Of a stretch of 64,000 nt of DNA, positions 12,258 to 57,978 are shown one piece after another. The position numbers and the translations under genes were made by a program. Below the pieces are notes generated by a model that saw only the letters and a list, made by a program, of their open reading frames with translations, searched no databases and was not told where the DNA came from. Origin of the DNA: Meandrina meandrites (lineage: Eukaryota > Cnidaria > Anthozoa > Scleractinia > Meandrinidae); contig OY855906.1 in the NCBI GenBank assembly GCA_963693305.1, positions 23,168,789 through 23,232,788 on the forward strand. Reading direction: 5' to 3'. Positions within the stretch are counted from its first letter, which is position 1, and each line of letters starts with the position of its first letter.

Positions 12258-13615
12258 CCCCCCTCCTTCTTGTTGAAGAAGGGGCGACGGTAGTTTTTTG
12301 ACGGCCCAGAGTAGTTGTTTTTATACCTGCTTTGGTATCTGTCTGAGTGGCCATCATTCCTAGATCTTTTGAAGCTTTGCTTCATCTCCCTGCTAATCTT
12401 TGAAGTAATTCGATTAGTGTCAGTGATGTCTTTTACCGCTTTGGGTAGGTCGTCTCCAAATAGCTCCGTTGTTATTGGGTTTGATGGAGCACAGAGATAG
12501 CGGTAGCTAGTATGGAGCTCTGGTTTGAGGGCTTCTCTGCGCCTGATGTTTAGTTCTATGTTAGCATTAGCCATCAGTAGAACACCATCCATGAGTCTAC
12601 TGACTATTTGGTCCTTTGGTAACATATCTGGTGTGCTGATTAGGTCATTTACAACCTGAACCACAGATGTTGTTCCCTTTATAAGAGACTTCTGTACCTT
12701 CTGGAGTTTGATGTCCGAGGTACGTGCTCTATCTGAAAGATTATTCCAGATAGCTAAATTAACTCTGGTTTCAGCCAGGGTTGCACAGTTCTTTGGCCTG
12801 AGGTAGCGTTTTTTGATCTCATTCAGCTTATCTTCCTCAGGTTTTTCTTTCAGCAACTTTTGGACAATAACAGCCAAGTTTTCGTTAATTTCAGCGCCAT
12901 CTTGTTCAGACACATTGAACTCTTTTTCGAGTTGGCTAAGTATGGCACTATTATCCTTGCTTAGAACAGTGTTATCGTCAGTTTTTTGTTTCTTTGGAGC
13001 AGGCTCCTCGGGTTCAATGTCCGACCCGCCATCAGTGTCATCCGACTCGGAGAGTGCGGATGCATTGTCGTCGCCTTTGGCGTCGTCGTTTTTAGCTTGT
13101 AGCAGTTTATTTAAACTGCTGAATCCTTTGTTCATCTGTACAGCAAAGCCTGAAAAAGCCTCTTTCAAAACAACAGCCATATCTGTGGATGAACTTTGGT
13201 CCGAGGCAGCAGATTTTCGTGCAGTGCTTAGACGCTCTTTTGGCGCGCTTTCTCCCTTTGAATGAGTCGAAGAACTGCTGGGCTCTGCCGCCGTAGTTTT
13301 TCCCGCGGCCTTCTTGCGAAGTTTAGAGCCACCAGAGGGTGTTTTACTACCCTTCGTTTGCAATTGAGCATCACTTTTGAGTGATTTAGTGGGATCTTTG
13401 GTCCCAGAATTAGGATTTGTGCCCTCTTTTGGAGTCGAATCGATGTGCTTCTCGGCACGTGCTTTGCTTCGTCTTTGGTTAATTCCGCCATTGTTTACCG
13501 GCGGTGTCGCGTCAATTCCTTCGGTCCAGTTCGCTAAAACTGCGTCTGAGTCTGAGCTCACTCGGAGCCGAGTCTCTGCGGTAGGTTTGTTGTCAATTTC
13601 CGATGGTTCATCCAT
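12227..13615 (-). CDS. DIRS gag-like protein (462 aa)
   Basis: It starts with ATG (13615) a little inside the left terminal repeat and ends just before the RT region. The N-terminal half is low in complexity and rich in S, T, K and acidic residues (about residues 1-215). The middle is helical and charged. The last ~60 residues are strongly basic and aromatic (SFKRSRNDGHSDRYQSRYK, NYRRPFF), a likely RNA-binding tail. No CCHC knuckle is present, which is usual for DIRS gag. It ends in a lysine-rich run over the slippery sequence. The role is inferred from position and composition. Confidence 0.7.
   Translation of the reverse strand: MDEPSEIDNKPTAETRLRVSSDSDAVLANWTEGIDATPPVNNGGINQRRSKARAEKHIDSTPKEGTNPNSGTKDPTKSLKSDAQLQTKGSKTPSGGSKLRKKAAGKTTAAEPSSSSTHSKGESAPKERLSTARKSAASDQSSSTDMAVVLKEAFSGFAVQMNKGFSSLNKLLQAKNDDAKGDDNASALSESDDTDGGSDIEPEEPAPKKQKTDDNTVLSKDNSAILSQLEKEFNVSEQDGAEINENLAVIVQKLLKEKPEEDKLNEIKKRYLRPKNCATLAETRVNLAIWNNLSDRARTSDIKLQKVQKSLIKGTTSVVQVVNDLISTPDMLPKDQIVSRLMDGVLLMANANIELNIRRREALKPELHTSYRYLCAPSNPITTELFGDDLPKAVKDITDTNRITSKISREMKQSFKRSRNDGHSDRYQSRYKNNYSGPSKNYRRPFFNKKEGGKKSAQKNQN
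12251..12257 (-). promoter_or_regulatory. Candidate -1 ribosomal frameshift site
   Basis: In the gag frame the codons read GGA AAA AAG, so A AAA AAG is placed exactly as an X XXY YYZ slippery heptamer. A -1 slip leads straight into the open RT frame, which has no ATG of its own nearby. A run of Gs lies just upstream. No downstream stem-loop was modelled. Confidence 0.5.
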
Positions 13616-17026: not shown

Positions 17027-19358
17027 ATGCCTACATTTGGGAAATTAGACGAATACAACGAAACGGAAGATTGGCGCCATTACATTGAGCGTGTTAACCA
17101 CTTCTTTGAAGCCAACGAGATTACGGATCCTGGCAAGAAAAGATCCATTTTCCTGGTTAGTGTGGGAGCCAAAACCTACAAGCTTATACGAAGTCTGGTT
17201 GCTCCGGAAGAACCGAAGGATAAAAGCTATGAGGACTTAGCGAAACTCGCCCAGGAACATTTCATGCCCAAGCCTTCCGCTATTGTTCAACGATTCAAGT
17301 TTAACACTCGCTCTCAACAACCAGGTGAGACCATTGCCATGTTTTTAGCTGAGTTGAGGCACCTGACCGAACACTGTGAATTTGGGACAACATTAGATGA
17401 AATGCTACGTGATCGGCTTGTGTGTGGTGTTCACGACATCAGAATACAGCGTCGTTTACTAGCCGAACCGAAATTAACCCTGAAGCGAGCGCTCAATCTG
17501 GCTCTCGCAATTGAGGCCGCAGATAAGGATGCCTCGGAGATACAAAAGGGGGACTCTCAGGAAGGGGATACCCCGGTCAACAAAGTCGATTTTAAAGTGG
17601 AAAAGGGTGGCGAAATTAGTTGTTATCGCTGTGGCGGTAATCACTACCCCAAAAGCTGTCATTTTAAGGATGCGAAATGTTATGCTTGTGGAAAGTTAGG
17701 TCACCTATCTCGAGTGTGCCAGGCCAAAAAGAAGGGGAAACTTCCACCTCCCAGTAATAATAAGAAGACGGACACCCCACAGGATACCCATCTCCTAGAG
17801 GGAGGAGAGGAGGCAATGGAGAGAGAACAGGGTGTGGGTGCATTTTCGTTGTTTACCCTTGGCAGTAAACGACCCTCACCGTACAAAGTGCAACTGAGTG
17901 TTGGTGGGCAAGCACTAGAAATGGAAGTTGACACAGGGGCTTCATTGTCAGTGATTAGAGAGGGCACCTACAAAAACCTTGTCTCAGAAAACAGGGCACC
18001 CCCATTAGAGAAATCAGGAATTGTCCTTCGCACATACACTGGGGAAGAGGTCAAGCCTGAGGGGGTGTGTACAGTTGACGTGGATGATGAAGGGGGCAAA
18101 TACTCCCTGCCATTGTTAGTTGTAAGTGGAGAAGGCCTAGCTCTGTTAGGAAGGAATTGGCTGGAAGAAATTAAGCTAAATTGGCCAAGGATTAAGCAAC
18201 TTACTTCGCATGACAAGCGACTCGGAGAGATTTTGCAGAAACATGCACAGCTATTTGGGAAGAGTCTGGGGACCCTACAGGGGACAAAGGCCAAAATCCA
18301 TGTGGATCTCACAGCCACCCCCATTTTCCATAAAGCCAGACCAGTGCCATATGCTCTCAGGGAGAAAATTGAGCAAGACCTGGAAAGACTTGAGAAGGCA
18401 GGGACCATTGAACCCGTCCAATATTCAGAGTGGGCCACACCCATTGTCCCAGTCATGAAGAGTGATGGCACAGTAAGAGTCTGTGGAGATTACAAGCTTA
18501 CTGTTAATAAGGTCTCCAAATTGGATGGCTACCCTATTCCCAAGCTTGATGATCTATACACAAAGTTGGCTGGAGGTCAAATGTTTACTGAGTTAGACTT
18601 GAGCCATGCTTATGAGCAGATGCTTGTGCACGAGAATTCAAGGGAATTTTTGACAATTAACACCCATAAAGGCCTTTTTAGATATAACCGCCTTCCGTAT
18701 GGGGTCTCTTCAGCGCCCGGCATCTTCCAGAGAACCATGGAGGGTTTGCTGCAAGGAATCCCTTCGACAGGAGTTTTGCTAGATAATATTCTCATCACAG
18801 GGCCCAGCACAGACGAGCACCTAGACAACATCGAGAAAGTTTTAGGACGCCTTTCTGATGCCGGGTTGCGGCTCAAAGCTGAAAAGTGCCAATTTATGAA
18901 GCCCGTTTTGGAGTGCCTGGGGCACCGCATTGACGCAGAAGGGTTCCATCCTGTTGATGCAAAGGTGAAGGCCATCAAGGAGGCCCCAACCCCAACTAAT
19001 CCCTCTGAGCTGAAGTCTTTTCTAGGGATGCTTAACTTCTATGGCAAGTTCATGCCCGACCTATCGTCCCACCTGGAGCCACTGCACGAGCTTCTGAGGA
19101 AAGATATCTGTTGGAAATGGGGTGCAGAGCAACAAGAGGCATTTGATAAGGCCAAGAATCGACTTCGATCATCAGATGTACTAGTGCATTATGATCCTGA
19201 GAAAGAGTTGGTGGTATCTTGTGATGCTTCACCCTATGGTATTGGGGCAGTCCTAGCCCATGTTATGAAAGATGGCTCAGAGAAACCAGTTGCATATGCC
19301 TCACAAACACTCTTCACAGCGGAGAGGAACTATGGCCACCTAGATAAAGAGGCACTAG
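17027..19358 (+). pseudogene. Gypsy gag-pol, first part, broken
   Basis: Starting at ATG 17027, the gag region is followed by two zinc knuckles (CYRCGGNHYPKSC and CYACGKLGHLSRVC near residues 199-231). Then come an aspartic protease motif (VDTGASLSVI), RT (VCGDYKLTVNK, ELDLSHAYEQM) and the start of RNase H (VSCDASPYGIGAVL). The RT catalytic box reads LLDNILITG where Gypsy elements carry YxDD. The second aspartate is Asn and the Tyr is Leu, so the polymerase should be dead. The frame is cut by a LINE within RNase H at the GCACTAG duplication (19352-19358). Confidence 0.85.
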
Positions 19359-20588
19359 ATAGATAGAGATAGATGCTTTAATAGATAGATGCTTTATTAA
19401 AACTAAATTGCAACCCGAGGGTTGAATTATATAGTTTTTTACAAAAAAATTACAATGGTTAAAAAAGGTTAAAATTACATATACAAAAAAATATACAACT
19501 ATGAAATGTCAAATATTTAAAATTTGAGCGCATTGCTAAGAATGAATGAGTTCTTCAATCTATTTGTCTTAAAATTAGCATTAAATTTTCGTTTCTTCCT
19601 CAAATTGTAATGACAGGTGTTCCTCTCTGGGAGTAAATTATGGAGTTTGTTATTCGTGTCTTCTGCAATCTTTGAAAAAAGCTTGTTCGTTAGGGACTGT
19701 CTTCTTGCTGAAAGAGTTTCAAGACCAGCCTGAGCCAAAGCTTCTTGGTAGGGCTTGAAAGGAAAAATGATGCGCATTGCCCTCCTTTGGATCCTCTCTA
19801 ACTCTTCTGAAAGGTACTTTGGAAGACTATCATGGAATACTGGACAAGCATATTCAGTAAGAGGACGAATACAAGTTCGATAAAATTGAATTAGCTCCTG
19901 TGTTCCGAGACCAGAGTGTTTGAGCTGCGACAGACAATACATTCGTTTCCTAGATTTCTTTCCGATTTCTTCAATGTGACAATTCCATTTAAGGTTACAT
20001 GTAATGTGCATACCTAGAATCTTAGCCTTGGGAACGCATTCGATTTCACTACCATTAATTACAATGGGGTCAAAGGAATTGTTTGCTGTACTAAAAGTTA
20101 TTCGAAGTTCCTTGCACTTTGCCTCATTGAGCTGGAACTTGTCTTCAGCTGCTCTGGTTACGAAGGTATCAACGGCGGTTTGGATGGTACTTGGCCGGTT
20201 CTTGGCTACGGTTTCTGAGATGGTGGTGTCGTCAACGTATTTCCATAGCTTGTTATCAGGAATGTCGAGTTCATTAATCATAATGATGAACAGCCACGGG
20301 CCAAGCTTAGTCCCTTGGGGGACCCCTGCTGGGATTGCCCCCCACTCAGAGAAGCAGTCGGAGCCGAGCTTCACTCGTTGCTTGCGGTCGGTAAGAAAAT
20401 CGATAATCCAGAACAGAATAGCCTCAGGGAGATCATAGTTGTGCAGTTTATTGGTCAATATGTGATGATCAATAAGATCAAAGGCTTTCTTGAAGTCGAA
20501 CAGGACCGCCCTTACTGTGGCCCCATCACCGTCGGTTGCACTGTTCCATTCGTGAATCATGCTGATAAGCGCTTCAGTTGTACTTACA
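19359..20588 (-). mobile_element. 5'-truncated LINE inserted in Gypsy pol
   Basis: It is flanked by the 7 bp duplication GCACTAG (19352-19358 and 20589-20595). Its 3' end is at the low-coordinate side and finishes in a short ATAGATAG-type microsatellite with AAAGCATCTAT repeats. This is typical of CR1/L2/Rex-like non-LTR elements, which lack a poly(A) tail. The 5' end is missing, so it was dead on arrival. Confidence 0.82.
19517..20588 (-). pseudogene. LINE reverse transcriptase, C-terminal part
   Basis: It is open from the truncated 5' edge to the stop at 19517. RT motifs in order are LFDFKKAFDLIDHHIL, PAGVPQGTKLGPWLF and the catalytic KYVDDTTISE. The thumb and C-terminal region follow (RKRMYCLSQLKHSGLG, RIQRRAMRIIFP). 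The endonuclease domain and N-terminal RT are absent because of 5' truncation. The clade is probably CR1/L2/Rex-like, judged from the GVPQGT context and the microsatellite tail. Confidence 0.75.
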
Positions 20589-20595
20589 GCACTAG

Positions 20596-22102
20596 CTGTA
20601 GTTTTTGCCGTGAAGAAGTTTCATCAATTTCTTTTTGGACGTCATTTCAAGATCTACACAGATCACAAACCACTTTTGGGGCTGCTTAACCCTGAACGGG
20701 CCACACCTCTAATGGCCTCAAGTAGGATGCAACGATGGGCATTGACTTTGCTTGCATATGAGTGTGAGCTTATTTATCGCCCTGGTGAACAGAATGGAAA
20801 TGCAGACGCCCTCAGTCGTCTACCCCTTCCAGTTGTTCCAGAGACCACGCCCATCCCAGGGGACATTGTTCATCTTCTAGAGACCATCAATACCAGCCCA
20901 GTGGATGCCACTAAAGTGAAGCTGTGGACAAGCCATGATCCAGTACTTTCTCAAGTTCTTCAGTTCGTCCTTCACGGATGGCCCATGGCAGTCGACGAAG
21001 AAGCCCTAAAGCCTTATTTTGCTAGAAGAGAGGAATTGAGTGTACATGCTGGCTGCCTACTTTGGGGATCCCGTGTCGTGATACCCCCACAAGGGAGAGA
21101 GGAAGTGTTGAGCATACTGCATGAGTCCCACCCTGGAATTGTTAGGATGAAAAGCCTAGCTAGGAGCTATGTGTGGTGGCCGAAAATGGATTCACGTTTG
21201 GAAGAAAAGGTGAAAAGCTGTGTTACCTGCCAAAGTCAACAAAAGAAGCCACCCAGTTCGCCATTGCACCCTTGGGAATGGCCAGGCCGCCCTTGGTCTC
21301 GAGTACATGTAGATTATGCCGGTCCTTTTATGGGCAAGATGTTTCTCCTAATTATTGATGCGCATTCTAAATGGCTGGATATCCATTGTGTGAATTCTGC
21401 CACTTCCAGCGCAACCATTGAAAAGCTGAGGACAACCTTTGCTTCACACGGCCTACCAGAGATTGTAGTGTCAGACAATGGGTCCAATTTTGTGAGCAGC
21501 GAGTTCAAGTCATTTCTACAGAAAAATGGCATCAAACACATTACCTCTGCTCCTTATCACCCATCATCAAATGGCCTCGTAGAGCGAGCCGTGCAGACTT
21601 TTAAACAAGGAATGAAGAAGCAAGGTGATGGTACTGTCGAGACCAAGTTAGCTCGATTCCTATTGAGTTATCGCATTACCCCCCAGAGCACCACGGGTGA
21701 GTCTCCTGCTCAGTTACGCTGGGGACGAAGTCTGAGGTCACATCTCGATCTGCTGCGACCAGATGTAGCGGCAAAGGTACATACAGCACAGTCAAGACAG
21801 AAGATGCAGCATGATCAGCATAGCCGAATGCGTCAAGTGGAAGTCGGGAATGTAGTGAATGTTCGAAACTACTCCCGAGGCCCCAAGTGGATTCCAGGGA
21901 CTATCATCCAGGAAACTGGTCCTGTGGCTTCGAAAATCGAGTTGGAAGATGAACTGTGGTTCGAAGACACCACGATCAACTAGTTGCCCGACCCACAGAA
22001 AGTTTCAACCCCGGTGTTACTAGCCCATTGCAGCAGGAAGTTGTGGATCCGGAGATAATCGTGCCTGATGTAAATGACCCCGAAGTTGCCCACGGAGACT
22101 GA
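20596..22102 (+). pseudogene. Gypsy pol, RNase H end and integrase, frameshifted tail
   Basis: The frame resumes after the LINE with AVKKFHQFLFGRHF and TDHKPLLGLL (RNase H). The integrase zinc domain follows (HPGIVRMKSL, CVTCQ). Then the catalytic core: aspartates in HVDYAGPF and VVSDNGSNF and the glutamate in NGLVERAVQ. All D, D and E are present. The frame ends at 21983, but the expected RRHHDQL tail is read in another frame to a TGA at 22100-22102. A small indel near 21955 therefore truncates the C-terminus. Confidence 0.82.
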
Positions 22103-30895: not shown

Positions 30896-31521
30896 GTATG
30901 TCACATTGCGTCTCATATCTACACAAATGTGTACAACATTACGCTAAAACCAGTGAAAAGCCAACATGAAAGACTCTGCCAAAGCGCATGTGCTTTGAAA
31001 CAGAGAAAAGAATAAATAAAACCACAGTCTTTCCTTTATTTACAGAATGAATACTTGAAGTAAATGAATACTTCAAGTAAACGTGCATGCTTCAATTAGC
31101 ACTGAAGCAACGCTGAAACAGAGAAAACAATAGAAACCTTGTAAAAATGCTTAAAACGCATGTTAATATATTACTTCTTACAGTGTAAAGGCACGAGTCA
31201 ATAGATGAAAATGATTCAATCTCACAATTGAGCATAACTTGCATGTTGATCTACAACTTGTAGAATGAACAGTTCACAAATGAATGCTTCCGAAGACGGG
31301 AATGAGTTCAATGAAGGCAACCGAAAAAGAAAATGACGTTGTCAAAAACTTAAAACAGTTTCTGATGAAAGTTTGCAAAAAATATTTACCAAAATCTACT
31401 CAGAGACCAGTCACATTAAGTATACTATTTGAACCATCTCACTGTAATTCATTTCTATAAGCGACCCTGCAGTTAAATTCAAAAGCATTCTCGAGAAAGT
31501 TAGGTGAAACCTTCTAAAAAT
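30896..31521. repeat. Intron-like DNA with a ~130 bp block repeated at 37702
   Basis: 31144-31275 is about 85-90 percent identical by eye to 37702-37835 in direct orientation (for example CTCACAATTGAGCATAACTTGCATGTT). The BEN transposon inserted into the second copy of this block, so the first copy shows the empty-site sequence. Confidence 0.6.
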
Positions 31522-31589
31522 GTGACCTCTCACGCGAAAACATACACTAACGGCTTTCCGTTTTTGAACGGAATTCCGTTCACAAGCCG

Positions 31590-31960
31590 TTTATCAGCCG
31601 TTCAGAAAAAATTTGCATCCGTTCGAACGGCTTCGGTCATCCGTTCAGAAAAAATTAGCATCCGTTCGAACGGCTCGGCTCATCCGTTCAAAAAATCTCT
31701 CGATCCGTTCGAACGGCTTGAGTCATCCGTTCAGAAAAAATTTGCATCCGTTCGAACGGCTTTGGTCATCCGTTCAGTAAAAATTAGCATCCGTTCGAAC
31801 GGCTCGGCTCATCCGTTCAAAAAATCTCTCGATCCGTTCGAACGGCTTGAGTCATCCGTTCAAAAAATCTCTCGATCCGTTTGAACGGCTCCGGTCATCC
31901 GCTCAGGAAAAAAACGAACGTGATCCGCTCGTTCGCTCGAACAGCTCAGTATCCGTTCAG
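31590..31960. repeat. Left subterminal palindrome array
   Basis: About nine units of roughly 40 bp carry ATCCGTTCGAACGGCT, alternating with half-sites CATCCGTTCA. A three-unit block of about 124 bp is itself duplicated. Confidence 0.85.
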
Positions 31961-32861
31961 AGGAAATCTTCACCCGTGCGGACGGCTACAGCTAGTCATC
32001 CGTTCGAAAGGCCAGAGATGTTTGTTTAGGATTCGGCAGGCGAAAGTTTTTTCTCTTATCAGCGACAAAGAATCTACGAAGGCGCCCTTGTGTAAATAAG
32101 AGTCACAAAGCCCGTCAAAGTCGTCAAATGCCGACGGATTCCTTTTGTTTTGTTTTTATCGGAGGCTAAAGTATCGCCAACTACTTTTCGAAATCTTACC
32201 CCGTGACTTGTTTGTAGTGTTAATATTTTGTATTCTATAAGTTTTATTAGACTTCCAAATCCTCGATTTACCATTTAAGATAATTTAACTTTCCAACAAC
32301 ACTATCAATTGAGGCGATTACGATTGTTTACATTTGGTCGCGGCGAAAAGAATGCACCAGTTTTTAATGCGGCAAAAATTATCATCTAGAGTCGTAACTT
32401 GTCACTCGTTTAATTAAACACCCCAGAATGAAGGTTGCGAAAAGTTTTGAACGGCGAAGCTATTATTCTATTGCCTTGTCATTTTATTTTGACAAAGCCG
32501 AAATCTTCGAAACCGTTGTAAACAAAACACGACCTGGTTCGGTTGTCGTCTCGATCGGTGCCGTGTAATCGAAAGCGATGCAGTTACAAATGAAGCCGCG
32601 TCCCCGTGTCTTGCTTCGCTAATGCTTTTATTGCGAGAAAAGGTATTAGTCATAACCAAAAAGTGATAAAGTTTTGGTCATAACAGCAGTTCAAAAGTCT
32701 ATTGATATTATAATTACGACTTGCGACCTGCGCTAATGAAGCTAATTATCAAGAGACACAAACTCGCGTGGCTATTCATATGTTAAGTTGAAAAACAATT
32801 GCACTTCATTTATCCAATGAAAGTACTGGATTTTCGATCCATGCGATTTGCAGGGCCACAT

Positions 32862-32870
32862 ATAAAAAGG
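32862..32870 (+). promoter_or_regulatory. TATA box of the BEN gene
   Basis: TATAAAAAG lies 92 bases upstream of the chosen ATG (32954), a suitable distance for a short 5' leader. Confidence 0.55.
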
Positions 32871-32953
32871 CATCGGCTACTAACATTTTTCACAACTGCA
32901 ATCTATCGCAGCTACAAAAAGTTCTAAGTACACTCACTTTGTATAGTCGCGTG

Positions 32954-35797
32954 ATGTCTTTTAGACAGCTGTGCAAACGAACAAGCAAACCTTTTTCAAA
33001 AGCACTGTTTCTTTTCCCGGAAGAACACAAAACTGGTATCGCGCCAACTCGTTTAATTATTGAGAAGGACCTCGATTTCACCGTGGGACAGTTTGTCTAC
33101 GTCAACTGGGAAGGAAAAAAAGTTCAAGCGGAGATCCTTGCTCTAAGCGGTAAGTTTTAATCTTTTCAGTTTTAACCTATTAAAACAAGTTTGGTAAAAA
33201 GTATGTTATTCACATTTGTAGATTACGTTCATGCCATCACTATTAATCCTCATTTATACTTACGATTCTTTCATTCTACACACGTTTTTTCTAGATAATG
33301 ATGAAGTCTTGGCCCAAAAAGACCTGGAGTGGTGCAAGGCAAACTACCCGGCAGAGTTCGACGTGATAGTTGAGAATTCAGAACCGCCAAGAAAAAAAGT
33401 TGCACGAAAGAAGGTAAGAGAGAGTTGATATTACGTACAACAATGTGATTGTTTGTTCAACGTTATCGAAAGAATTAGAACAAATATGATTATGATTAGA
33501 TGAAAATTGAATTTCGTGTTACATGCAACTGATTGAAAAAGACGAGTCCACTTTTAGCTAATATCCTGGCTTTTAGTCATGTTGATTCACATGTTGAATT
33601 TAATTTATCGGACTACATTGCAGAGTACCATGAAATTAACTTGTTGTTTGCTTTTTCGGGGAGTTTTATTGGATTTGCGACGGACATACAGCATTTAAAT
33701 CCGCGCAGAGAGCCTGCGAGCAGGCTAATATTCTTCAAGTAAAATTGTCCCTTTTAATAGAAATGAGTGCGCAGTCGTGATCAACGTGCGACTGACACTT
33801 CTTTTTAATTCAGAAATGGACATTTATCTGTGTTGATTAAAGTTCATAGTATATTAAGATATTAAGGAAAAACAAACTAACATGAAATTGGTGAAAGTTG
33901 TGTTTCTTGAAATAAAACTATAATTAGCATATGTTCGCACATTGCGCGTGGGTTTTAAAGGTGAGAAAAAAGTTAAGCCGCCAAGCCTTTCAAACATTTC
34001 AGTCACTAATTACCAATTGTATTTTTTTGAAATTATTTTCTTTGACTCACTAGCCTGCTGATGAAAAAAATACCAACACCGGAGCCAGTCAAATTACACA
34101 GGGTGACCATCCGTACGACCACTTTTTGTCCGGTCAAAAGCAGCGGAAATTGGGCTGGAAGGAGAACCGAGAAACAGAACTGGCCAAAGTACAGTCCAAA
34201 ACACCGGTACCCTCAATGAGCCGCAGCGGTGACAATCAAGAAGATCTCGTCGCTTCATTGCGTCAGCAGCTGACTGCCAAGACGGAAGAGTGCCGTCAGC
34301 TAACGAGCAGATTGGACGCCATTGAAGCAGCAAACGACAAAATTCTCAGGAACCAGTTGCAAATGCAGGAAGATTTTGTTAAGGTAATGTTTCTACAAGT
34401 CGTTGTTTTTTTTTTCGAAAAAATTCTTTACACCGCCTTTCGGTTGGAAAAAAACGCTGATTGCAATCAACGTATGTAGGTTCAACTTATTAGAAAACAC
34501 CCTGTAAGAAAGTTTGCTCCACGCTACTTCTATTTACCAAATACAAGAATAGCTTATAAGTCAGACGAGTGTTGTACAAGAAATAAGTGTTCGTACTCAG
34601 TCAATTCATCCCAAAGTGTCATTATGCGCAAGTTCTCATTTGATCTCATTTAGGAACATTTAGCAGGGATAGAAACATATTCATGGGAAAGATGAAACTA
34701 ATTACACTATTCTTTTTTACTATTGCAGATGCTGGAGAAAATACAGGCCTCCGTGACAGCAATCGAAGATAATACGGCTGCCGCAGTTTCTGGCCTTGCA
34801 ACACGCCTCGACGTTATGGAGGAACACGGAGTAAATGAATATACCATGGTAAGCAATCGCGATAAATCGAAATCTACTTGGTTCGTGCATCTTCTGTAAA
34901 AAAAACACATAATTTTTCGTTCAGTTTGGAATACAACACAATGTCAATAGAATTGCGAATTGTTTTAAGTGGTCCAGGAAATATTTATTAATATGTGCAC
35001 GCTGATAATTAGTTTTGTAAGTTATCAAGGAGTGCAGTAACTCGTGATTGAACGTGGTTCGTATTTTAACCTTTAGGCTTGGTTTTTATGAACGGCAGTG
35101 AAACTGGAACAGTCGAATGTTCGACTGAACTCGCATTTAATTCAAATCTGCCGAGTTTAATTGTTTTAAACGTCGCATTTTACATGCATTTGATTCGGCG
35201 TATGTAAAATGCGACTTTTATAAACCAGGCCTTAGCACAGGCAAACGCAATGACAAAGGAGGTTTGACAACGTCTTTTTTTTTTCACCAGCTCCAAACCA
35301 CGGTCAACGAAACCCCGGTTACAGAGGAGACCGGAGTTACCAGCAATCAGGACCTGACCACCATCAACATCGAAGCCCTCAGCAGACTCAACGAGGAGGA
35401 ACCACTTGAGATAGGCAGTCCGGTCCTGCAAGCCGCTACCACCACACCAAACGGCGAGGAGCTTATTGGTACATGCGTGACGCCAACAAAAATTAAAACG
35501 GTCCAGCACACCCTTGGAAAAGAGAGTGAGCGACATCTGTGTGCTCTGAAGCTACTGCCCAATTTCTTCAGTAAGGAAGAGCTAGCCACAAGCAACACTG
35601 ACGGAACGTACGACAAAAAGTGCCTTGATAGCAACAAACTGAATTCACTGAAAATATTAGTATTTACTAAGTTTCCAGCCAGCACCAGCGACGAAAAAGA
35701 CAAAGCCTGGAGGTTCATCAAAAGCAAAATCAACTCGAAGTGTCGCACAACTCGCAAGCATTTAGCAAGAGAGTTTTCTCCGCCGCGTTTGTCGTGA
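32954..35797 (+). CDS. BEN-domain protein of the transposon, five exons
   Basis: The exons are 32954-33149, 33295-33413, 34054-34383, 34729-34848 and 35291-35797. All have GT-AG borders and compatible phases (1, 0, 0, 0). The predicted protein is about 423 aa with no stop. The N-terminus has a small beta-rich segment (FTVGQFVYVNWEGKKVQAEI) resembling Tudor/chromo-barrel folds. A basic linker follows (PPRKKVARKK), then a long coiled coil over exons 3-4 (LRQQLTAKTEECRQLTSRLD). The C-terminal ~100 residues form a BEN domain: LKLLPNFFSKEELATSNTDG, KKCLDSNKLNSLKILVFTKF and WRFIKSKINSKCRTTRKH. BEN domains bind DNA, often palindromes, and act in chromatin or viral and mobile-element proteins. The start is the first ATG after the TATA box. 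Intron 4 carries a small MITE. AATAAA is at 36117-36122. The domain call is by eye but strong. Confidence 0.72.
35076..35231. mobile_element. Small Harbinger-type MITE in BEN gene intron 4
   Basis: The inverted ends GGCTTGGTTTTTAT and ATAAACCAGGCC are flanked by TTA at 35073-35075 and 35232-35234, the 3 bp duplication usual for PIF/Harbinger MITEs. There is no gene. Confidence 0.6.
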
Positions 35798-36116
35798 AAA
35801 AAATAAGTTCAAATTCATGTAAACGTAACTTGTAGGCTAGGGAAAACCTTTCGTTAAAACTAGTTTCTTATATCCAGCTGTATATAGTCCACGTTTGTAG
35901 TAGTGAAATGAGCTGAAATTAAAGCAAGTGTCGGTTAGGGGAAATTTTTCTCTAGAAATAGTTTTTCAACCAGCTGTATTAACTGTTGTATTAGTTGTAT
36001 TAAAATAGTTGACTATTGCAAACTGACAATGGTACTTTGATGGTGTATTTATTATCTCCCATGGGTAGTCTAATGGCGAACACAGACCCAGTGTCAATTC
36101 GGAACCGGGCGAAAGA

Positions 36117-36122
36117 AATAAA
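36117..36122 (+). terminator. Polyadenylation signal AATAAA
   Basis: It lies about 320 bases after the stop codon of the BEN gene and is the first canonical signal found downstream. Confidence 0.4.
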
Positions 36123-36256
36123 GGTTTACCCAAGAAAAACGGACATGCCCGTTTTTCTTGTGCTTTTACTTAGATCGACTCATGCGGCGGCGACTCCCAG
36201 TACTAGTGAAAACAACATAGGAAAAACAAGCGTAGTTGTTCTCACTTTTGTTATGT

Positions 36257-36580
36257 TTATGTCGTTTTGCCGAAACATTGGAATAGGAGATTGGAGATTC
36301 CGTGTTCCTCGTAATGTTCCTTCAATCTACGAAACCGCGAGTAGCTAATACCGTAGAGGTTTAAAAACATATCCTTGCAGATTGGACGGTTGAGGTAAAT
36401 AAAACTGCATCGTGCACTGCGCTTTCTTTTCTCGCCGATGATGTCGATGCTTGTGAACGCTTGGATGTTCGCTAGAATAACAAGGTCGAGTTCCCCATGT
36501 GATAACTCCAAGCAGTTGTTTAAATTTGAAAGCACAGTAATCTCCTGGAACTGCCGCGGCCTTCTGTCGATTTGATTGAT
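36257..36580 (-). pseudogene. Transposase-like protein, N-terminal remnant
   Basis: The reverse strand reads SHGELDLVILANIQAF, then a basic patch (GEKRKRSARCSF), then NRPICKDMFLNLYGISYSRF and RRLKEHYEEHGIS. This is the block found near the N-terminus of a family of long uncharacterised transposase-like proteins in cnidarian and fish genomes, from my general knowledge. The usual basic PRxHGN continuation is missing; the frame runs into a stop at 36257 instead. No upstream ATG was confirmed in this frame. It probably marks the former transposase gene of the BEN transposon, convergent with the BEN gene. Confidence 0.45.
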
Positions 36581-36814
36581 ACAGATTGGCTGTTGCGTTA
36601 CCTGTCACGATGTTTCTTGTAACCCGTGTGCACGTATGCAAATATCGGGCCGACACATGCTTCAAAGAAACGGAGTTGCCTCGCTTTTCGCGCGCGTTTT
36701 GCTCTTCACAGTGAGCTCAGGCCAGAGTTTAATACCAGTTTGGAAAAGCATACTTATAACAAGCTAAGAAGATGGGACATATAAACACTCACGTATCTTT
36801 TATTTTGTAAAAAT

Positions 36815-37310
36815 AGCGGCAAATGACTCGATATTACAATTTGTTTTGTGCAAGTTTTGTTTACATTCCTCTTCGCAAACTCGGGAGCGAACCTCAAGTT
36901 TAATACTTTTCTTAAGTTATAGCGATCAATAAAGTAGAAGATTTTTCGAAACATCTGGCTGTTAGTTCAAAGTTTTATTTATTTTGCAGTGCAGACGAAG
37001 TTTACATTTGTCGTCAGCCGCGTGCTGCCATGAATATTTCTCGCGTTCGTTCTAATGACTCGGTATTGTGTTGGTTTTGTTTACGTTCCTCTTCACAAAC
37101 TCGGGAAAGAACCCTGATTCATCGCTCGATCAAGCGACCAAGTTATACTTTTCTTAAGTTAAAGCGATCAATAAAGTAGTGGATTTTTCGAAACATCTGG
37201 CTGCCAGTTCAAAGTTAATATATTTATTTTGCAGTGCATACGAAGTTTACATTTGCCGTCAGCCACATACCGTCGTGAATATTATTATTTTTCTCGCGTT
37301 CGGCGATTTA
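36815..37310. repeat. Tandem duplication of ~245 bp
   Basis: Two direct copies share TTCTTAAGTTA, GCGATCAATAAAGTAG, TTTTTCGAAACATCTGGCTG and ACGAAGTTTACATTTG. It lies upstream of the transposase-like remnant (-), so it may be its old promoter region. Confidence 0.65.
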
Positions 37311-37319
37311 CTTTCGGTG

Positions 37320-37650
37320 AGACATTCAGCCGTTCCTGGATATCCATTTATTTTCATAAGCCGTTCAGCCGTTCATAGCCACCCGTTCAAAATTTTACAC
37401 AAGCCGTTCAGCCGTTCGTGGCTATCCGTTCGGAATAATTAATAAGCCGTTCACTCGTTCACGACAACCCGTTCAAAATTTTTCGCAAGCCGTGCAGCCG
37501 TTCACGGCAACCCGTTCAAAATTTTTCGCAAGCCGTTCAGCCGTTCATGGCAATCCGTTCAGAATATTTAATAACCCGTTCAGCCGTTCAGTTTCACCCG
37601 TTCCAAACGGCTTAGTGAGCCGTTTCTTACCCGTTCGATAGCCGTGCGTT
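37320..37650. repeat. Right subterminal palindrome array
   Basis: About eight degenerate units contain AAGCCGTTCAGCCGTTCA and ACCCGTTCAAAATTTTT. They share the CCGTTC half-site with the left array, but with a different spacing and without perfect palindromes in most units. Confidence 0.75.
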
Positions 37651-37705
37651 TTACCCGTTCAACGGAAAGCCGTTAGTGTACGTTTTCGCGTGAGAGGTCA
37701 CAAAT

Positions 37706-38447: not shown

Positions 38448-39408
38448 ATGGATAATTCCAGAAACGTTCCTTTAAGTGATGCACGGTCAAGCCATGCAAG
38501 GTAAGTTTCCTTCCTTTAAACAGTGGGGATGCAAAGCATTTCCCTAACATAACAAATTATTTTCTTCAGGTCTCCCTTCGTTATTCCTCAAGTCAGCAAT
38601 CACTTTCCCGATCCCGGATGTGGAGATTCAATTCCCCATAGCAATACGGAAGGATCACCATCCCATCAGCAAAAGATACAACTCAGCTGTTTGGGAATCC
38701 ATTGCCAAACAACTAAACAAGCTATTAAGAGAACAGGGCCTCACGTCCATCCGCACAGCATCCCAATGCAAAGCTAAAATAAAGACTCTAGAGGACGAAT
38801 ACAAACGTGTGAAAGATCACAACAACAAAAGTGGGAACGATCGAGAAACATTCACCTATTACGAAGATTTAAATGAAATACTGGGTTGCCGTGCCAAAAT
38901 TACGCCGAAAACTGTCGTTCAATGCGGTTTCGAAGATGACGCAGTAGATAAACGATCAGAGTCTAGTGACGCAGAGAGCGATGGGGACGGAGAGGATCAG
39001 TATCTTTCTGAAGCGCTTTTCAGATGAAATCCAACTGCCAACAAGGGCAAGAAAGCTGTGGCTGATACGCCAAATTCCTTCAAGCAAAAATCTGCCAAAT
39101 CTAGTAAAGCCAATGAAAACCTTGTTTTTTCTGAGTCACTTTTTTCCAAGAGTAAACCTGGAAGCAATGCCGGAAAGAGAGCTTCTAGTCCTGCACACCA
39201 GCCTCTCGCTAAAAGGTACAAAAAGGGAGAGTCCAGCGGCCAGGGATCCGGTAACAAGGAATATTTTGGCTTTCTAACTGAAAGCCAAAAATGCGATCAC
39301 GAATTTTTCGAACGCCTGGCTGAAAAGGACGCAGAGAGAGAGATTAAAAGCCAGGAAATGATGCTCTCCATGGTAAAAGAAGTTGCAAAGATTTTTAAGG
39401 GAGAATGA
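38448..39408 (+). pseudogene. Harbinger Myb/SANT-like DNA-binding protein, decayed
   Basis: Harbinger elements encode, besides the transposase, a Myb-like protein that helps it bind and enter the nucleus. The reading contains RYNSAVWESIAKQLNKLL, IRTASQCKAKIKTLEDEYK and VKDHNNKSGNDRETFTYYED, a trihelix/SANT-type domain. An acidic linker follows (SSDAESDGDGEDQ), then a Ser/Lys-rich part and a C-terminal helix (EFFERLAEKDAEREIK). A TGA at 39025-39027 interrupts the frame in the linker. A short first exon (38448-38500) and acceptor at 38569 can be seen, but their phases do not agree with the main frame, so a second lesion or another splice choice is likely. Confidence 0.6.
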
Positions 39409-48685: not shown

Positions 48686-49326
48686 TTCACGGGAAGTGGA
48701 CAAATTAGGTCTTTAAATGGAAATAAGGACAAGAAAATTATTTATACTGCTTTCAGTCCATTCATAAAGAAATATTTTGTGAAGTATGTAGATTGTCTTC
48801 GTTTGCCTGACATTTCATCTGAACGCTTGTGTAAACAACAGCTAAACTCATCAATTAACTCATTTTCTTTCATTGCGTTGTTTTCATATACAACTTTTCC
48901 GGAATGGCTTTTATCGCCTTTTAGCAAGATTTCACTAATAATCTCTTGATACAAGAAGGCAGATGAATACTTTTTTCAACCTAAACTTATCATCGTTCTT
49001 CAATTAATTTTCAAGTGGAGTCGGCGATTCGCGAATGACACATTTTCAATCAGTAATTTAGTTTTCACACGGTTTCAATACATACATTTTTCGGTTCAAA
49101 ATAAGTTTCATGCTATTCACACTATCTTTTTACCAACAGTTTTGAATTCAACATCAGTCAGATAGCGTTATTCAATTAAACTTGCGAGAAATCCAAGAAA
49201 ATAATAATTGCAGGAAAGCCCCGGGAAAACAACTTGATTAGTGAACTTGTTTTGTTTTGAGTCGTTGTGTATCCATTCTTCCATTCTAAAGATTCTGTGT
49301 GGCAAAGCTGAAACAAAACAACAAAT
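48686..49326. other. Non-coding, nothing recognised
   Basis: No supported exon; intron-like DNA of the decayed minus-strand gene. The last four bases are the AAAT flank of the next element. Confidence 0.3.
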
Positions 49327-51088
49327 GTGACCTCTCACGCGAAAACGTGCCTAATGGTATCCGTTCGAATGGCCGAACGCACGGCAAGCGAACGGATGAG
49401 AAACGGGTAGGCAAGCCGTTCGAAACGGATAAAGCGAACGGCTGAACGGATGCAGAAAATTTTCGAACGGATGAGGTTGAATGGCTGAACGGATGCAGAA
49501 AATTTTCGAACGGATGAGGTCGAACGGCTGAAGAAAATTTTCGAACGGATGAGGTCGAACGGCTGAACGGATGAAGAAAATTTTCGAACAGATAAGGTCG
49601 AATGGCTGAAGAAAATTTTCGAACGGATAGGGTCGAACGGATGAACGGCTAAAGGAAATTTTTAACCAGTTCATACATGGTAACGGCGCTCTGTTCCCGC
49701 TCTATTTACATTTGCAGTCGCCGCCGAGAATGTAACACCACTGGCTGTTAATGAAGTCAAAATCTTTCGAATTTGCTTGGTGCATTCCTGTTTTTTAAAA
49801 GAAAATAAACATCGAAGGGCAAAACAGCAGAAGCGTAAATAAAAAGTAAAATAACAATCGTGACAACGTGAGACAACTCGACGCGCGAAGGTCACACTTC
49901 AGTCGGAATGTGCTGTGTCAGCGACTGAGAACGTTGTTTAAAATTCACGTAATATGTATACTTGAAAGGTATTATTACACGACAAATGTCTGGATATCTA
50001 TTATTTCTTTCAACTTTGCCACACAGATCGGATATATAAGAAGCCAAATCAATGTTTTGATCATCGAGTTGTTTCCCCGCATACACATGTCTGGGACAGC
50101 AGGACGCACGTGCTTCATTTCTTAACTTTTCAATATTTACATGTAAGCCGCAAATATTAACACTGATCGTCCACCAAGCAATCTGAGCGTCCAATTTCGA
50201 ACTGACCGAAAAACGTTACAGTGGGATATAATGAATTATTCTTATCTGCAAAAGAAACAAAACTTCTACCCGAACAACAAAGTAAACAACTCGTGGGAAG
50301 AAGCCGACATTTGCATAATCAATGATGAACGTTTCCCGAAAGATAACACATTTCCTGCAAATGCCATTGATTCCCTGATCTTCCATAAAACTTAAATTCG
50401 ATCGTCGTGAGCGTTCACAAACTTACATAAGAAACAAACTTTTTATGTGTTTGTTTTCATGACTACATACATGTATTTCAACTTAGCCGCGAATATTATA
50501 ATCGCTGTCACGCTTGTTGTTGACAGCCGTATTACAACTTATGAAGTTTTCATCCCGGTAAAAGCCAACTTGATTGAATAAAACTCAAGTCTTGAATAAA
50601 ACGTTTATCGATAATCGAAAGATAGCTTAGGAGCAGAAAAAGAACCCGGATTATAATATTCCTGAGGTGTTTGGAAACAACACATATTTTCATTCGTAAC
50701 GCTACGAACGGCGAATACTACTATTTGACAAAGTTGTTCAACGCGAGCGGCTGAACGGATAGCGCTAGCCCGAACGGTTGCCCTTTTTTTCCGAACGGAT
50801 AGCTCAATCCGTTCGAACGGCTGACAATTTTTTCTGAACAGATAGCCCGAGCCGTTTCAACGGCTGGCAATTGTTTTTGAACGGATAGCTCGAGCCATTC
50901 GAACGGCTGGCAATTTTTTTGGAACGGATAGCTCGAACGGTTTGAACGGCTGACAATTTTTTCTGAACGGATAGCTCGACCCGTTCGAACGGCAACCCAT
51001 TCCGTTCGAATGGCTGACGAACGGCTAACGAACGGCTATCCGTTCAGAAACGGCTAGTCGTTAGGCACGTTTTCGCGTGAGAGGTAAC
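49327..51088. mobile_element. BEN-transposon family, 1.76 kb deletion derivative
   Basis: The inverted ends GTGACCTCTCACGCGAAAAC and GTTTTCGCGTGAGAGGTAAC match the 31522-37701 element. AAAT flanks both sides (49323-49326 and 51089-51092). The left array (about 49360-49660, units like GAACGGATGAGGTCGAACGG) and right array (about 50700-51060, units like GAACGGATAGCTCGA) flank about 1 kb of unique non-coding DNA. No BEN or transposase fragment remains. Confidence 0.82.
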
Positions 51089-51959
51089 AAATATCTAGAT
51101 ATCGGCTAAATAATGCTTTTCAACGATTTTCAATTATATGCGAATCAAGCGAACACAGCAACTGACGTCCAGTCGAACACAACAGACAGCGCGAAAAGTG
51201 TGAAAAATAGCGTGACCTTTGCCCACAGTTCAGTCGAACGCCCTGCAAAAATGAAAGCCGCCACCACTTTTTTCTTTTGATGTGCACGTATACCACTGGC
51301 ATCTTTGACGCTGCTCGTTGATGTACTGCACTTGACAAATTTTAGGGTTCGATTAATGAAATTCAAGTATTTAGCTTGTGTGATGCTTTCTTTGTGACGT
51401 CTCGCCAATTTTACATCGACTCTTGGCTCGAAAGCTTCCGAAAGGGCCGAGACGGGTTATCACGGAAAGTGCCGTCCCAATCAGGAAAACTGCATGATCA
51501 CAATATGTGGATTTTCACACTTCGTGTGAAAGTCCACATAAAAATTATTAAAACTTTCAGGATAAGGACAAACCCAGTGTACCAAAAAATTTACAACTTA
51601 CAACAGCAACCTGTGTAATTAAAATATTTTTGTTTTTTCAGCAATGAACATTTTATTGTGTTGAATGTCATCTACAGCCTGTACCTTATAACAACAGACC
51701 ATATTCATATTCTCGGTATTGAACTGAATGGTAATAAAATTTTATTCTTCAAGCTATTGTTCATCAATGAAACTACAACAACCTACACTTTGTTTTCCAT
51801 TTGGCAAAATTTTTGTTTTCTTTTGTCCCAGGTACAACTGCTAAAACCAGGTTTACAGGGTGTCGGTATTAACAGGCAACCTAGCTTTGTCTAGTGATAA
51901 ACATGGGACCTATTGAGGGAAAGTGTACATAATAAAAATTAATAGTAATTATGACCTAC
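51089..51959. other. Non-coding, nothing recognised
   Basis: Intron-like DNA downstream of the exon at 51960-52473 of the minus-strand pseudogene. Confidence 0.3.
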
Positions 51960-55221: not shown

Positions 55222-56167
55222 GGCAGAACCCGGGTACAATTGGATTCACAAGCTTCAAAGAGAATTGATCAAAGCGATCCAGCGTTTGAAAGGTACGTAT
55301 TTCTTTCCCGCGTATTTCGCTTCGCTTCGAGAAAGATAGCGGCAAAAAAGCAATCAGAGACGGAAATCTGGGCAGCCTTCAAAGAGAACTGGTATCAATT
55401 TGAAAGACAAACAAAATTGCCGCGGCTAAGAGATTGTTTTTCGTAGCGAATTTTAAAGCGAGGGCGAAGTCAATCAGTCTCGCACATTCGCGCGCTTTCG
55501 AACTTAGTTTTATACGTCCAGTAGAATCGACGTACGAACTCGAATTATAAGTTCCGTACGCAACTTATTCTAACTTTGATTTCTTTGAATTCCTTTCGCG
55601 CCCTTGATTGTATTTTTATACCTGCATCAAAGGAAGACGAATTCTAACAGAAAGACTGGGCTTTGCGACAGAGAAGGAACGAAAACATTTTATAGCAAGG
55701 TAAGTTATTCCTAATTAGTTGGCTGCAACTAATTCTTACTTTGATTTCACGCAATTTCGAACTGAGTTGATTGTATTTTTATGCTTGCATCAAAGATTCA
55801 CACAGTGAAGACTGAGCTTTTTGTCAGACGAGGAATAAAAGTATCTTGAAGCAAGGTAAGTTATTTTTAATTCAATCGAATAACTGAATTTATCTCTTTG
55901 CAAAAGTATATTTTTTTCTTGTCAAGGAGTGGTAGTTATTTTGCGAGTGAATCAAACCGATCGTATAATTATTACGTTTTTGTACACGTAAACAAAACAT
56001 GACCTGTGTAAAGACAACCTTAGAGAATCGAATAACTTGCGTTCTCAGTTTCAACTAAGCGATGAAATTTACTTTCTCCCTTTGTTTTTATTGAATTGGC
56101 GTTTACGTGACTACTCAGTGCAGACGGAAAACCATGACGTAAAACTAATTTATAATTTTTTCACACC

Positions 56168-56850
56168 TTATTGACAAACAAAGCATGCTTTAGTTCGCCA
56201 AAAACAACAGCCATAACCACCTATAACCACCAATAAACACCGATAATCACCAAATAACCACCAACAACCACACAAGAACACCAACAACCACCAATAAACA
56301 CCGATACCCACCAAAAAACCACCAAATGCCACCGATACCCTCCAAATAACCACCGATAACCACCAATAAGCACCGATACCCACCAACAACCATCAAAAAA
56401 CACCGATATCCACCAAATAACCACCGATAACCACAAAATAACCACCAATAACCACCAACAACCACCAATAACCACCGATAACCACACAAGACCACCGATA
56501 CCCACCAAATAACCACCGATACCCACCAATAAACACCGATACCCACCAAATAACCACCGATAACCACCAATACCTACCGATAACCACCAATACCCACCGA
56601 TAACCACCAATAACCACCAACAACCACCAATAAACACCGATATACACAAAAAAACACCAAATACCACCAATACTCACCAAATAACCACCGATAACCACCA
56701 ATAAATACCGATACCCACCAAATAACCACCGATACCCACCAGATAACCACCAAATAACCACCAATTACCACCAACAGCCACCAATAAACACCGATACCCA
56801 CCAAAAAACCACCAAGAACCACCGATAACCACCAAATTTCACCAGTCAAG
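56168..56850. repeat. ACCACCRATAACCACCAA minisatellite
   Basis: About 680 bp of short units mixing ACCACCGATAACCACCAA and AATAAACACCGATACCCACC. The forward strand is almost free of G and poor in T. The long open frames on the reverse strand (GGYRWLFGGY-like) are products of the repeat, not genes. Confidence 0.9.
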
Positions 56851-56920
56851 TATTAAAAATAATGCGCTATTTGATTTAATTCACTTTCATTAGGAGGAGG
56901 AAGGAGTCAGTAATAGAATC

Positions 56921-57730
56921 ATGTCCCTTTGGTGTCGTTATTGTCAAAGACTATTTACTCGTGCAGACAGTAGAAGCCGTCACGAGAAATATAGATGTCA
57001 AATGCGATTTGAGGTCCCCCCGAAGAAAATATTTCCCACTGAAACGTCAAATGGAAACCCAACAGGAATAGAAACAGGTGAAGCGTTTCGATTCAAGACA
57101 CCCTCTAGTATTCTGGTCGTGGGGCCCTCAGGCTGCGGCAAGTCTTGTTTTACGGAGTCGTTACTATTGGATCACTCAGACGAGTTGTTCCGTGAACCCC
57201 CCGAGACCATTCATTATTGCTACGGGGCCTGGCAAGATGGTTTCGTGGACATGAAAAGGCATGGAATACACTTTCACGAAGGGGTTCCTACGACCTCCCA
57301 ATTGCAAAAGTGGTTTCCGAACGGCGGACTTCTTGTGGTGGACGATCTCATGACAGAGGGAAGTGAAGACAAGGAGTTGCTGGATTTGTTCACCAAACAC
57401 TCTCATCATCAAAATATCACCGTCATGTTTTTGTGTCAAGACATGTTCCCACCCGGTAAATACGCCAAGACTATTTCCAGGAACGCTCACTACATCATAG
57501 CCTTCAAGAATCCTCGCGACCAAGTAGCCATGAAGAATTTACTACTGCAAGCTTTTCCCATCTACTGGCCAGACATAATGACGGTGTACCAAAAAGTGGC
57601 GAAACGACCATTCAGATACTTGGCTTTGGATCTGCATCCCGCCAGTGATGACAGGAGAAGGGTATTTAGTCACCTCTTGACGTACGAAGGATACCCACGC
57701 TGGTATCGAAGAAAGATAGAGGATGTTTGA
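56921..57730 (+). CDS. Polinton packaging-type ATPase with N-terminal zinc finger (269 aa)
   Basis: It belongs to the FtsK/HerA-like (A32-type) ATPases that Polintons and related DNA viruses use to pump DNA into capsids. A C2H2-like finger opens the protein (CRYCQRLFTRADSRSRHEKYRC, residues ~5-26 of the reading). Walker A is VVGPSGCGKS near residue 65 and Walker B LLVVDDLM near residue 143. The sensor-like ITVMFLCQDMFP and arginine-rich FRYLALDLHPASDDRRR follow. ATG 56921 lies shortly after a likely splice acceptor (56873). The frame is intact. An extra copy of its 3' end follows directly at 57773. Confidence 0.82.
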   Translation: MSLWCRYCQRLFTRADSRSRHEKYRCQMRFEVPPKKIFPTETSNGNPTGIETGEAFRFKTPSSILVVGPSGCGKSCFTESLLLDHSDELFREPPETIHYCYGAWQDGFVDMKRHGIHFHEGVPTTSQLQKWFPNGGLLVVDDLMTEGSEDKELLDLFTKHSHHQNITVMFLCQDMFPPGKYAKTISRNAHYIIAFKNPRDQVAMKNLLLQAFPIYWPDIMTVYQKVAKRPFRYLALDLHPASDDRRRVFSHLLTYEGYPRWYRRKIEDV

Positions 57731-57930
57731 ACTAATTGTATATTAAAAATCACCTCTAACGACTGCAGCTCGGTTACTTAGCTTTGGATCTGCATCCCGC
57801 TAGTGATGACAGGAGAAGGGTTTTTAGTCACCTCTTGACGTACGAAGGATACCCACGCTGGTATCAAAGAAAGAGAGAGGATGTTTGAACTAATTGTATA
57901 TTAAAAATCATCTCTAACGACTGCAGCTCA
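57615..57930. repeat. Tandem duplication of the ATPase 3' end (~157 bp)
   Basis: 57773-57930 repeats 57615-57772 (ACTTGGCTTTGGATCTGCATC region through GACTGCAGCTC) with about four base changes. The second copy is outside the coding frame. Confidence 0.8.
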
Positions 57931-57978
57931 TTTGAAGCACGCTGTCTTGGGTGAAACGTTGACGTGAAGAAAAAGACC

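Follow-up and report, generated by a model that had tools for sequence, protein, structure and literature searches.

A 64,000-nucleotide (nt) stretch of the genome of the stony coral Meandrina meandrites (assembly GCA_963693305.1, contig OY855906.1, positions 23,168,789 to 23,232,788; hereafter the window) contains a DNA transposon copy, element 1, which is a transposase-deleted, non-autonomous derivative of a two-gene cut-and-paste family. Taken as a whole, our reading is that element 1 is a copy that moved recently and carries internal deletions, that fuller members of the family carry a DUF7869 gene of ~580 amino acids (aa) together with a BEN gene of ~420 aa, and that the BEN protein marks, pairs or loads the element ends, which we consider probable. 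Its parts differ in strength, with the two-gene family and the deletion history of element 1 being very likely, and a role of BEN in end binding, as read from the sequences, being an evenly balanced call.

Structure of element 1

Element 1 lies between 41-bp terminal inverted repeats that start GTGACC and is flanked by AAAT on both sides, with end arms that are 98% complementary over 42 nt. At 6,180 bp, it agrees with the original prediction, made from the letters of this DNA, of a 6.2 kb element with inverted ends and AAAT flanks. Its borders are as follows.

31522..37701 (6,180 bp; genome coordinates G000:C4:23200310-23206489): element 1, internally deleted non-autonomous DNA transposon copy
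31518..31521: left target-site duplication, AAAT
37702..37705: right target-site duplication, AAAT
31522..31562, + strand: left terminal inverted repeat, 41 bp, opening GTGACCTCTCACGCGAAAAC
37661..37701, - strand: right terminal inverted repeat, 41 bp

Within these borders, the predicted five-exon BEN gene is indeed intact and encodes 423 aa, with a C-terminal BEN domain at residues 340-408 in a Pfam scan of the protein (E 4.5e-8, above the curated cut-off). Structure comparison gives this domain a fold like that of the DNA-bound BEN domains of BANP and insv. We found 27 related proteins, part of them matching the C-terminal region alone, and the named relatives come from the stony corals Oculina, Montipora, Acropora and Porites. 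P0001 (Oculina) shows 58% identity over 98% of the query, three Montipora capricornis proteins show 47-49% identity across the whole query, and the N-terminal region is also present in homologues of other corals. No relatives of the BEN protein were found in viral contigs.

32861..32867, + strand: TATA box, with the start codon 93 bp downstream (equal distance in the copy L168)
32954..33149, + strand: BEN gene exon 1, with start codon
33295..33413, + strand: BEN gene exon 2
34054..34383, + strand: BEN gene exon 3
34729..34848, + strand: BEN gene exon 4
35291..35797, + strand: BEN gene exon 5, including stop
35543..35749, + strand: BEN domain (PF10523), residues 340-408 of 423

On the opposite strand we observe the stump of a second gene. 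The stump lies outside the Pfam DUF7869 domain and is assigned via its identity to P0028 and its collinearity with the whole gene of L168. Element 1 is collinear with both L155 and L168, and it is 99-100% identical to L168 in the shared parts, minus two internal deletions; by this collinearity, the two missing pieces contain most of the DUF7869 gene.

36556..36293, - strand: stump of the DUF7869 gene (likely transposase), 88 aa, 98% identity to P0028, flanked by the two internal deletions
36286..36293: junction of internal deletion 1, ~2.2 kb of L168 absent in element 1
36554..36555: junction of internal deletion 2, 176 bp of L168 absent in element 1

A search with the stump frame returned 136 related proteins (best 120 listed), and a query joined from two coral stump-type proteins returned 185 matches (best 120 listed), many of them ~580 aa long and carrying DUF7869, such as P0150, which scores 73.2 bits against Pfam DUF7869 (PF25273; cut-off 26; E 2.6e-20). 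Pfam scans of P0150, P0152 and P0164 saw DUF7869 only, with no rve (integrase-type) match up to E 1, and the best E among PDB sequences searched with the DUF7869 profile was 0.96. No stump-family relatives were found in viral contigs. The presence of DUF7869 in elements that have ends and target duplications (see below) makes its protein the likely transposase of the family. The original prediction had presented the element as built around BEN; this stands in so far as the BEN gene recurs among copies, and has to be amended for the second gene, ~580 aa long in relatives and an 88-aa stump in element 1.

Copies in the genome

The genome searched for copies comprises 551 Mb in 56 contigs. The exact 15-nt end occurs 89 times (reversed control, 0), and 40 of these ends form 20 facing pairs of 1.6-8.4 kb (16 of them 1.6-3.7 kb), which are all the facing exact pairs less than 20 kb apart. 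This copy number is a lower bound, as only exact ends were counted and copies with inexact ends, such as element 2 described below, are excluded. Identical 4-bp flanks are present in 16 of the 20 pairs (AAAT in seven, ATAT in five, ATTT in two, AGTT and ATCT in one each) and the flanks are unequal in four; AWWT flanks account for 14 of the 16 equal-flank pairs, or 15 of 17 with element 2 added. The combination of terminal inverted repeats with fixed-length 4-bp duplications in many copies identifies the family as a cut-and-paste DNA transposon.

BEN matches were found in four of the 20 pairs (L141, L153, L155 and L159, the last being element 1) and DUF7869 matches also in four (L145, L153, L155 and L159), with neither gene in 15 pairs and both genes present in the longest copies. 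L155 (8,445 bp, 41-bp perfect ends, AAAT flanks) carries BEN exons and, on the opposite strand and facing them, a DUF7869 gene that is almost complete. The BEN copy of L155 lacks a portion of exon 5, and the DUF7869 frame is interrupted close to its end. In L153 the DUF7869 frame is open, and exon 1 alone was found of BEN. Both genes are open in L168, with a BEN protein of 423 aa and a DUF7869 frame of 578 aa; its BEN gene differs from that of element 1 at 6 of 1,272 nt and 3 aa, with splice sites retained, and its right end was not found within 2.4 kb past the last aligned base. L169 has an open DUF7869 frame; neither end is present, and BEN exon 1 is missing its first part.

The window holds a second member of the family, element 2, a gene-less copy whose ends are those of element 1 apart from a single mismatch at the right end. 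The copy is in the opposite orientation to element 1; its two arms differ from each other, and each matches its counterpart in element 1. Element 2 gave no match to the 27 BEN proteins or to the BEN protein of element 1, and of the 120 listed stump relatives only the tail of P0111 matched, within the array.

49327..51088 (1,762 bp), - strand: element 2, gene-less copy of the family of element 1, flanked by AAAT (49323-49326) and AAAT (51089-51092)

Two pairs on contig C5, L148 and L149, lie ~123 kb apart, measure ~2.6 kb each and share one combination of unequal flanks (ATAT and AAAT), as would result from a duplication of the locus after insertion. Three DUF7869 copies at even 4.35-kb steps (G000:C2:3917790-3928182) look like a tandem array of the gene or the element. 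In bacterial and archaeal genomes (at least 120 stretches) and viral contigs (11 stretches), an end that continues into AAA was present at one of the 131 loci checked; this locus had four array motifs in 8 kb and was taken as chance.

Linkage of BEN and DUF7869

We entered all 75 BEN matches and 55 of the 81 DUF7869 matches of the genome in the linkage count, the 26 omitted being further pieces beside entered ones. The BEN matches fall into 49 clusters, and 25 of these lie at most 6 kb from DUF7869, where an even spread expects 0.13% for each (fraction 0.0013); conversely, 26 of the 55 DUF7869 places have BEN within 6 kb. For the remaining 24 BEN clusters, an exact end lies no more than 8 kb away in three cases. 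At the best 8 of the 81 DUF7869 matches, BEN is found within 1.5 kb in seven cases, with L155 being the eighth. The two genes face each other in element 1, L155, L168, L169 and L153, and are on the same strand in L163/L178, L165, L166 (where the BEN match is weak, 29% identity) and L167.

At five distant DUF7869 places, too, a same-strand BEN match lies 3.9-4.3 kb away, with DUF7869 49-50% identical to P0155 and BEN ~37% identical. Two members of this distant group, on C6 and C5, are collinear 8.8-kb elements whose ends, GTGACCCTCCACGGGAAAAC, are perfect over 49-52 bp and whose flanks are AATT and AAAT; the analysis of these elements covers their two outer parts. The two genes are thus linked in at least three sequence-divergent groups, namely those of element 1, of L178 and of the distant C5/C6 elements. 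The same-strand gene order accounts for the database proteins P0214 and P0020, in which a single protein runs from DUF7869 into BEN, and for locus L177, in which DUF7869 residues 1-271 are followed after 57 nt by BEN exon 5. Contigs of equal length among the BEN and DUF7869 hits (1,689 bases for P0016/P0058 and 1,353,297 for P0009/P0140) were considered as a further sign of linkage and rejected, as other equal sizes (999 and 1,806) look like chance.

A lone BEN copy, L179 (G000:C8:21156500-21160900), consists of exons 1, 3 and 5. DUF7869 is absent for 135 kb around it, and its 4.4 kb contain a single array motif; its exon 5 is near that of L178, with nonsynonymous and synonymous rates (dN and dS) of 0.008 and 0.028. 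In the same stretch as a distant-group element, L181 (G000:C6:16132500-16137500) contains frames resembling, by eye, a Polinton-type DNA polymerase.

Selection and age

In BEN, the divergence of L155 from element 1 is ~2%, at a similar level in exons and introns, which marks a young copy; exons 1-4 show 11 changes that are nonsynonymous and 4 that are synonymous, too few for constraint to be shown from that pair. Between L178 and element 1, with BEN identities of 77% in exon 1 and 62% in exon 5, we observe dN 0.146 and dS 0.807 in exon 1, dN 0.325 and dS 1.427 in exon 2, and nonsynonymous and synonymous proportions (pN and pS) of 0.321 and 0.766 in exon 3 and of 0.229 and 0.817 in exon 5. Judged by these values, the BEN gene is clearly constrained by purifying selection between subfamilies, and the comparison of L155 with L153 (dN 0.19, dS saturated) indicates purifying selection on DUF7869 between groups as well. 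By its 99-100% identity to L168, element 1 is a young, recently moved copy. The alternatives of selection or recent insertion, between which the original prediction had not chosen, therefore both apply.

Subterminal arrays and a possible role of BEN

Inside its terminal repeats, element 1 carries an array of short motifs in each arm.

31566..32005, + strand: left subterminal array, 14 consecutive CCGTTC motifs 21-22 bp apart, in a 43-bp unit with CCGTTCGAACGG palindromes
37330..37660, - strand: right subterminal array, 19 GAACGG motifs (from the end inwards), many of them 8, 14 or 21-22 bp apart, in reverse polarity to those of the left arm

In the left arm the spacing alternates 22, 21, 22, 21 bp through the 14 motifs. 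We counted CCGTTC or GAACGG in the outer 500 bp of each side and in the interiors of the 20 facing pairs and element 2, and found 771 motifs in 21 kb of arms (36.7 per kb) versus 10 in 40.6 kb of interiors (0.25 per kb). The majority polarity is opposite between the arms in all 21 copies. Distances of 21 and 22 bp between motifs are the most frequent (272 of 691), and at least 9 motifs occur in every arm other than the right one of L141, which has 4. Arrays are dense on both sides in 20 of the 21 copies, including those with neither gene, and this retention in gene-less copies indicates that they are probably required in cis. The left arm of the L178 group still has a CCGTTC/GAACGG array; the distant group (C5, C6) is without it and has a 16-bp repeat with CACGCG at one end instead.

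We propose a mechanism in which the DUF7869 protein would bind the terminal inverted repeats via a helix-turn-helix-like region and would cut and join with an RNase H-like acidic centre, with D312, D391 and D433 as candidate residues. The BEN protein, joined via its coiled coil, would bind the CCGTTC arrays cooperatively, the array phase of 21-22 bp corresponding to two helical turns, and array-bound BEN may then mark, pair or load the ends, by analogy with ORF1 of PIF/Harbinger. Short gene-less copies, which retain the arrays, would be mobilised in trans, and element 1 could still provide BEN, not transposase.

The strongest competitor, plausible although short of an even chance, keeps the same two-gene family and makes BEN a regulator that acts on chromatin, drives or represses the promoters of the element, or shields it from silencing, via the arrays or other sites. 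The described BEN proteins in the parts of the literature consulted are mostly chromatin and transcription factors, and the orientation of the two genes differs between groups, so that a single transcript is not needed. The placement of the arrays at the ends, with opposite polarity and high density on both sides even in gene-less copies, is more in keeping with a role in mobility in cis, and, as described in PMC9579193, a transposase of the Tn3 family recognises its ends by means of a BEN-like domain.

Relation to known systems

The ~580-aa partner protein carries Pfam DUF7869, a domain with no function in Pfam that in the coral is found inside elements with ends and target duplications. In PIF/Harbinger elements, ORF1 is Myb-like and target duplications are 3 bp long, whereas the coral partner is BEN and the duplications are 4 bp. 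In En/Spm (CACTA) elements, a second element protein, TnpA, binds arrays of short subterminal motifs, which is the likeness to the coral family; their ends, however, start with CACTA or a near variant, whereas the coral ends start with GTGACC and are flanked by 4-bp duplications. Ginger elements have an integrase-type (rve) transposase, unlike P0150, P0152 and P0164, which gave no rve match in the scans above. BANP, insv, NACC1 and BEND3 share with the coral protein a C-terminal BEN domain of the same fold, and differ in that the coral BEN is transposon-encoded and multicopy, and has a conserved N-terminal region and a coiled coil of its own; BEN domains bind short, sometimes palindromic DNA, according to the parts of the literature consulted. 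The Tn3-family case concerns bacteria, with the BEN-like domain placed inside a large transposase (PMC9579193, consulted part), whereas the coral BEN is a separate eukaryotic-type protein beside DUF7869.

Sola2 elements are the closest in their target sites. As described in the consulted part of PMC3627910, they have AT-rich 4-bp AWWT target duplications, e.g., ATAT, AAAT and ATTT. Inverted ends with AWWT duplications, seen here in 15 of 17 equal flanks and in both distant elements, fit Sola2, to which the family may belong. The examples in that part of PMC3627910 carry Fanzor1 and have 12-21-bp ends, whereas the coral ends reach 41-52 bp and come with phased arrays and BEN. On the strength of the duplications, the family might be an ordinary member of a Repbase superfamily, with Sola2 as the best guess and a second, BEN-type protein perhaps already noted, which we think rather unlikely: no account of a eukaryotic BEN transposon and no mention of DUF7869 were found in the literature searched (Repbase was outside that search). 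From the sequences, the family appears to be a two-gene cut-and-paste transposon with BEN as its second protein, a combination for which we found no eukaryotic precedent in the literature searched. We tentatively suggest, with less than even confidence, that it represents a separate eukaryotic cut-and-paste lineage, in which a DUF7869 catalytic subunit reads the conserved terminal repeat, an obligate BEN subunit reads a lineage-specific array, and BEN and array change together. Such a joint change would be seen in the L178 group, where BEN at 77% and 62% identity goes with a retained array in the left arm, and in the distant group, where BEN at ~37% goes with a retained terminal repeat and with other repeats in place of the array.

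We regard it as very improbable that BEN was captured from the host and rides in the element as a passenger with no function there. Animals do have host BEN genes (none were compared with the element copies), and 16 of the 20 paired elements lack a BEN match, literally the case of copies without the gene that the original prediction had named as the sign of a single captured host gene. That conclusion is not upheld, since BEN and DUF7869 are paired in diverged groups, one of them at ~50% DUF7869 and 37% BEN identity, and BEN is under purifying selection between groups; the proposal of a transposon with a recurrent BEN gene is the one that survives. That the stump is a piece of an unrelated nested transposon is practically negligible in likelihood, for although DUF7869 is abundant, with 81 genome matches, the collinear L168 and L155 have the DUF7869 gene at the place of the stump, and fragment P0111 passes from DUF7869 into the CCGTTC array.

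With the two-gene reading, DUF7869, a family without an assigned function, gains a likely one as a transposase, and the BEN domain, a domain of chromatin factors and of some proteins of viruses, is placed in a eukaryotic transposon as a lasting partner gene. This raises two questions: does BEN serve as an end-binding protein in coral elements, in the way the BEN-like domain acts in Tn3, and did some BEN genes of animals and of their viruses originate in, or move into, such elements? Pairs of array and BEN would be a natural set for reading BEN specificity.

Neighbourhood of element 1

The window gave no transfer RNA or Rfam match and contains several other frames, all assigned by eye. Large open frames like reverse transcriptase and tyrosine recombinase suggest a DIRS-type retroelement, and a reverse-transcriptase-like frame amid Gypsy-like frames suggests a fragment of a non-long-terminal-repeat element inside a Gypsy element. 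A Myb/SANT-type frame lies 0.9 kb past the right end of element 1, and a frame like a Polinton packaging ATPase stands beside a stretch of strong local guanine-cytosine (GC) skew.

9367-13615, - strand: DIRS-type retroelement frames
17027-21983, + strand: Gypsy-like gag-pol frames
19517-20560, - strand: reverse-transcriptase-like frame
38620-39027: 135-aa open frame, Myb/SANT-type DNA-binding
56000-58000: GC skew of -0.248, low-complexity frames
56921-57730: frame like Polinton packaging ATPase
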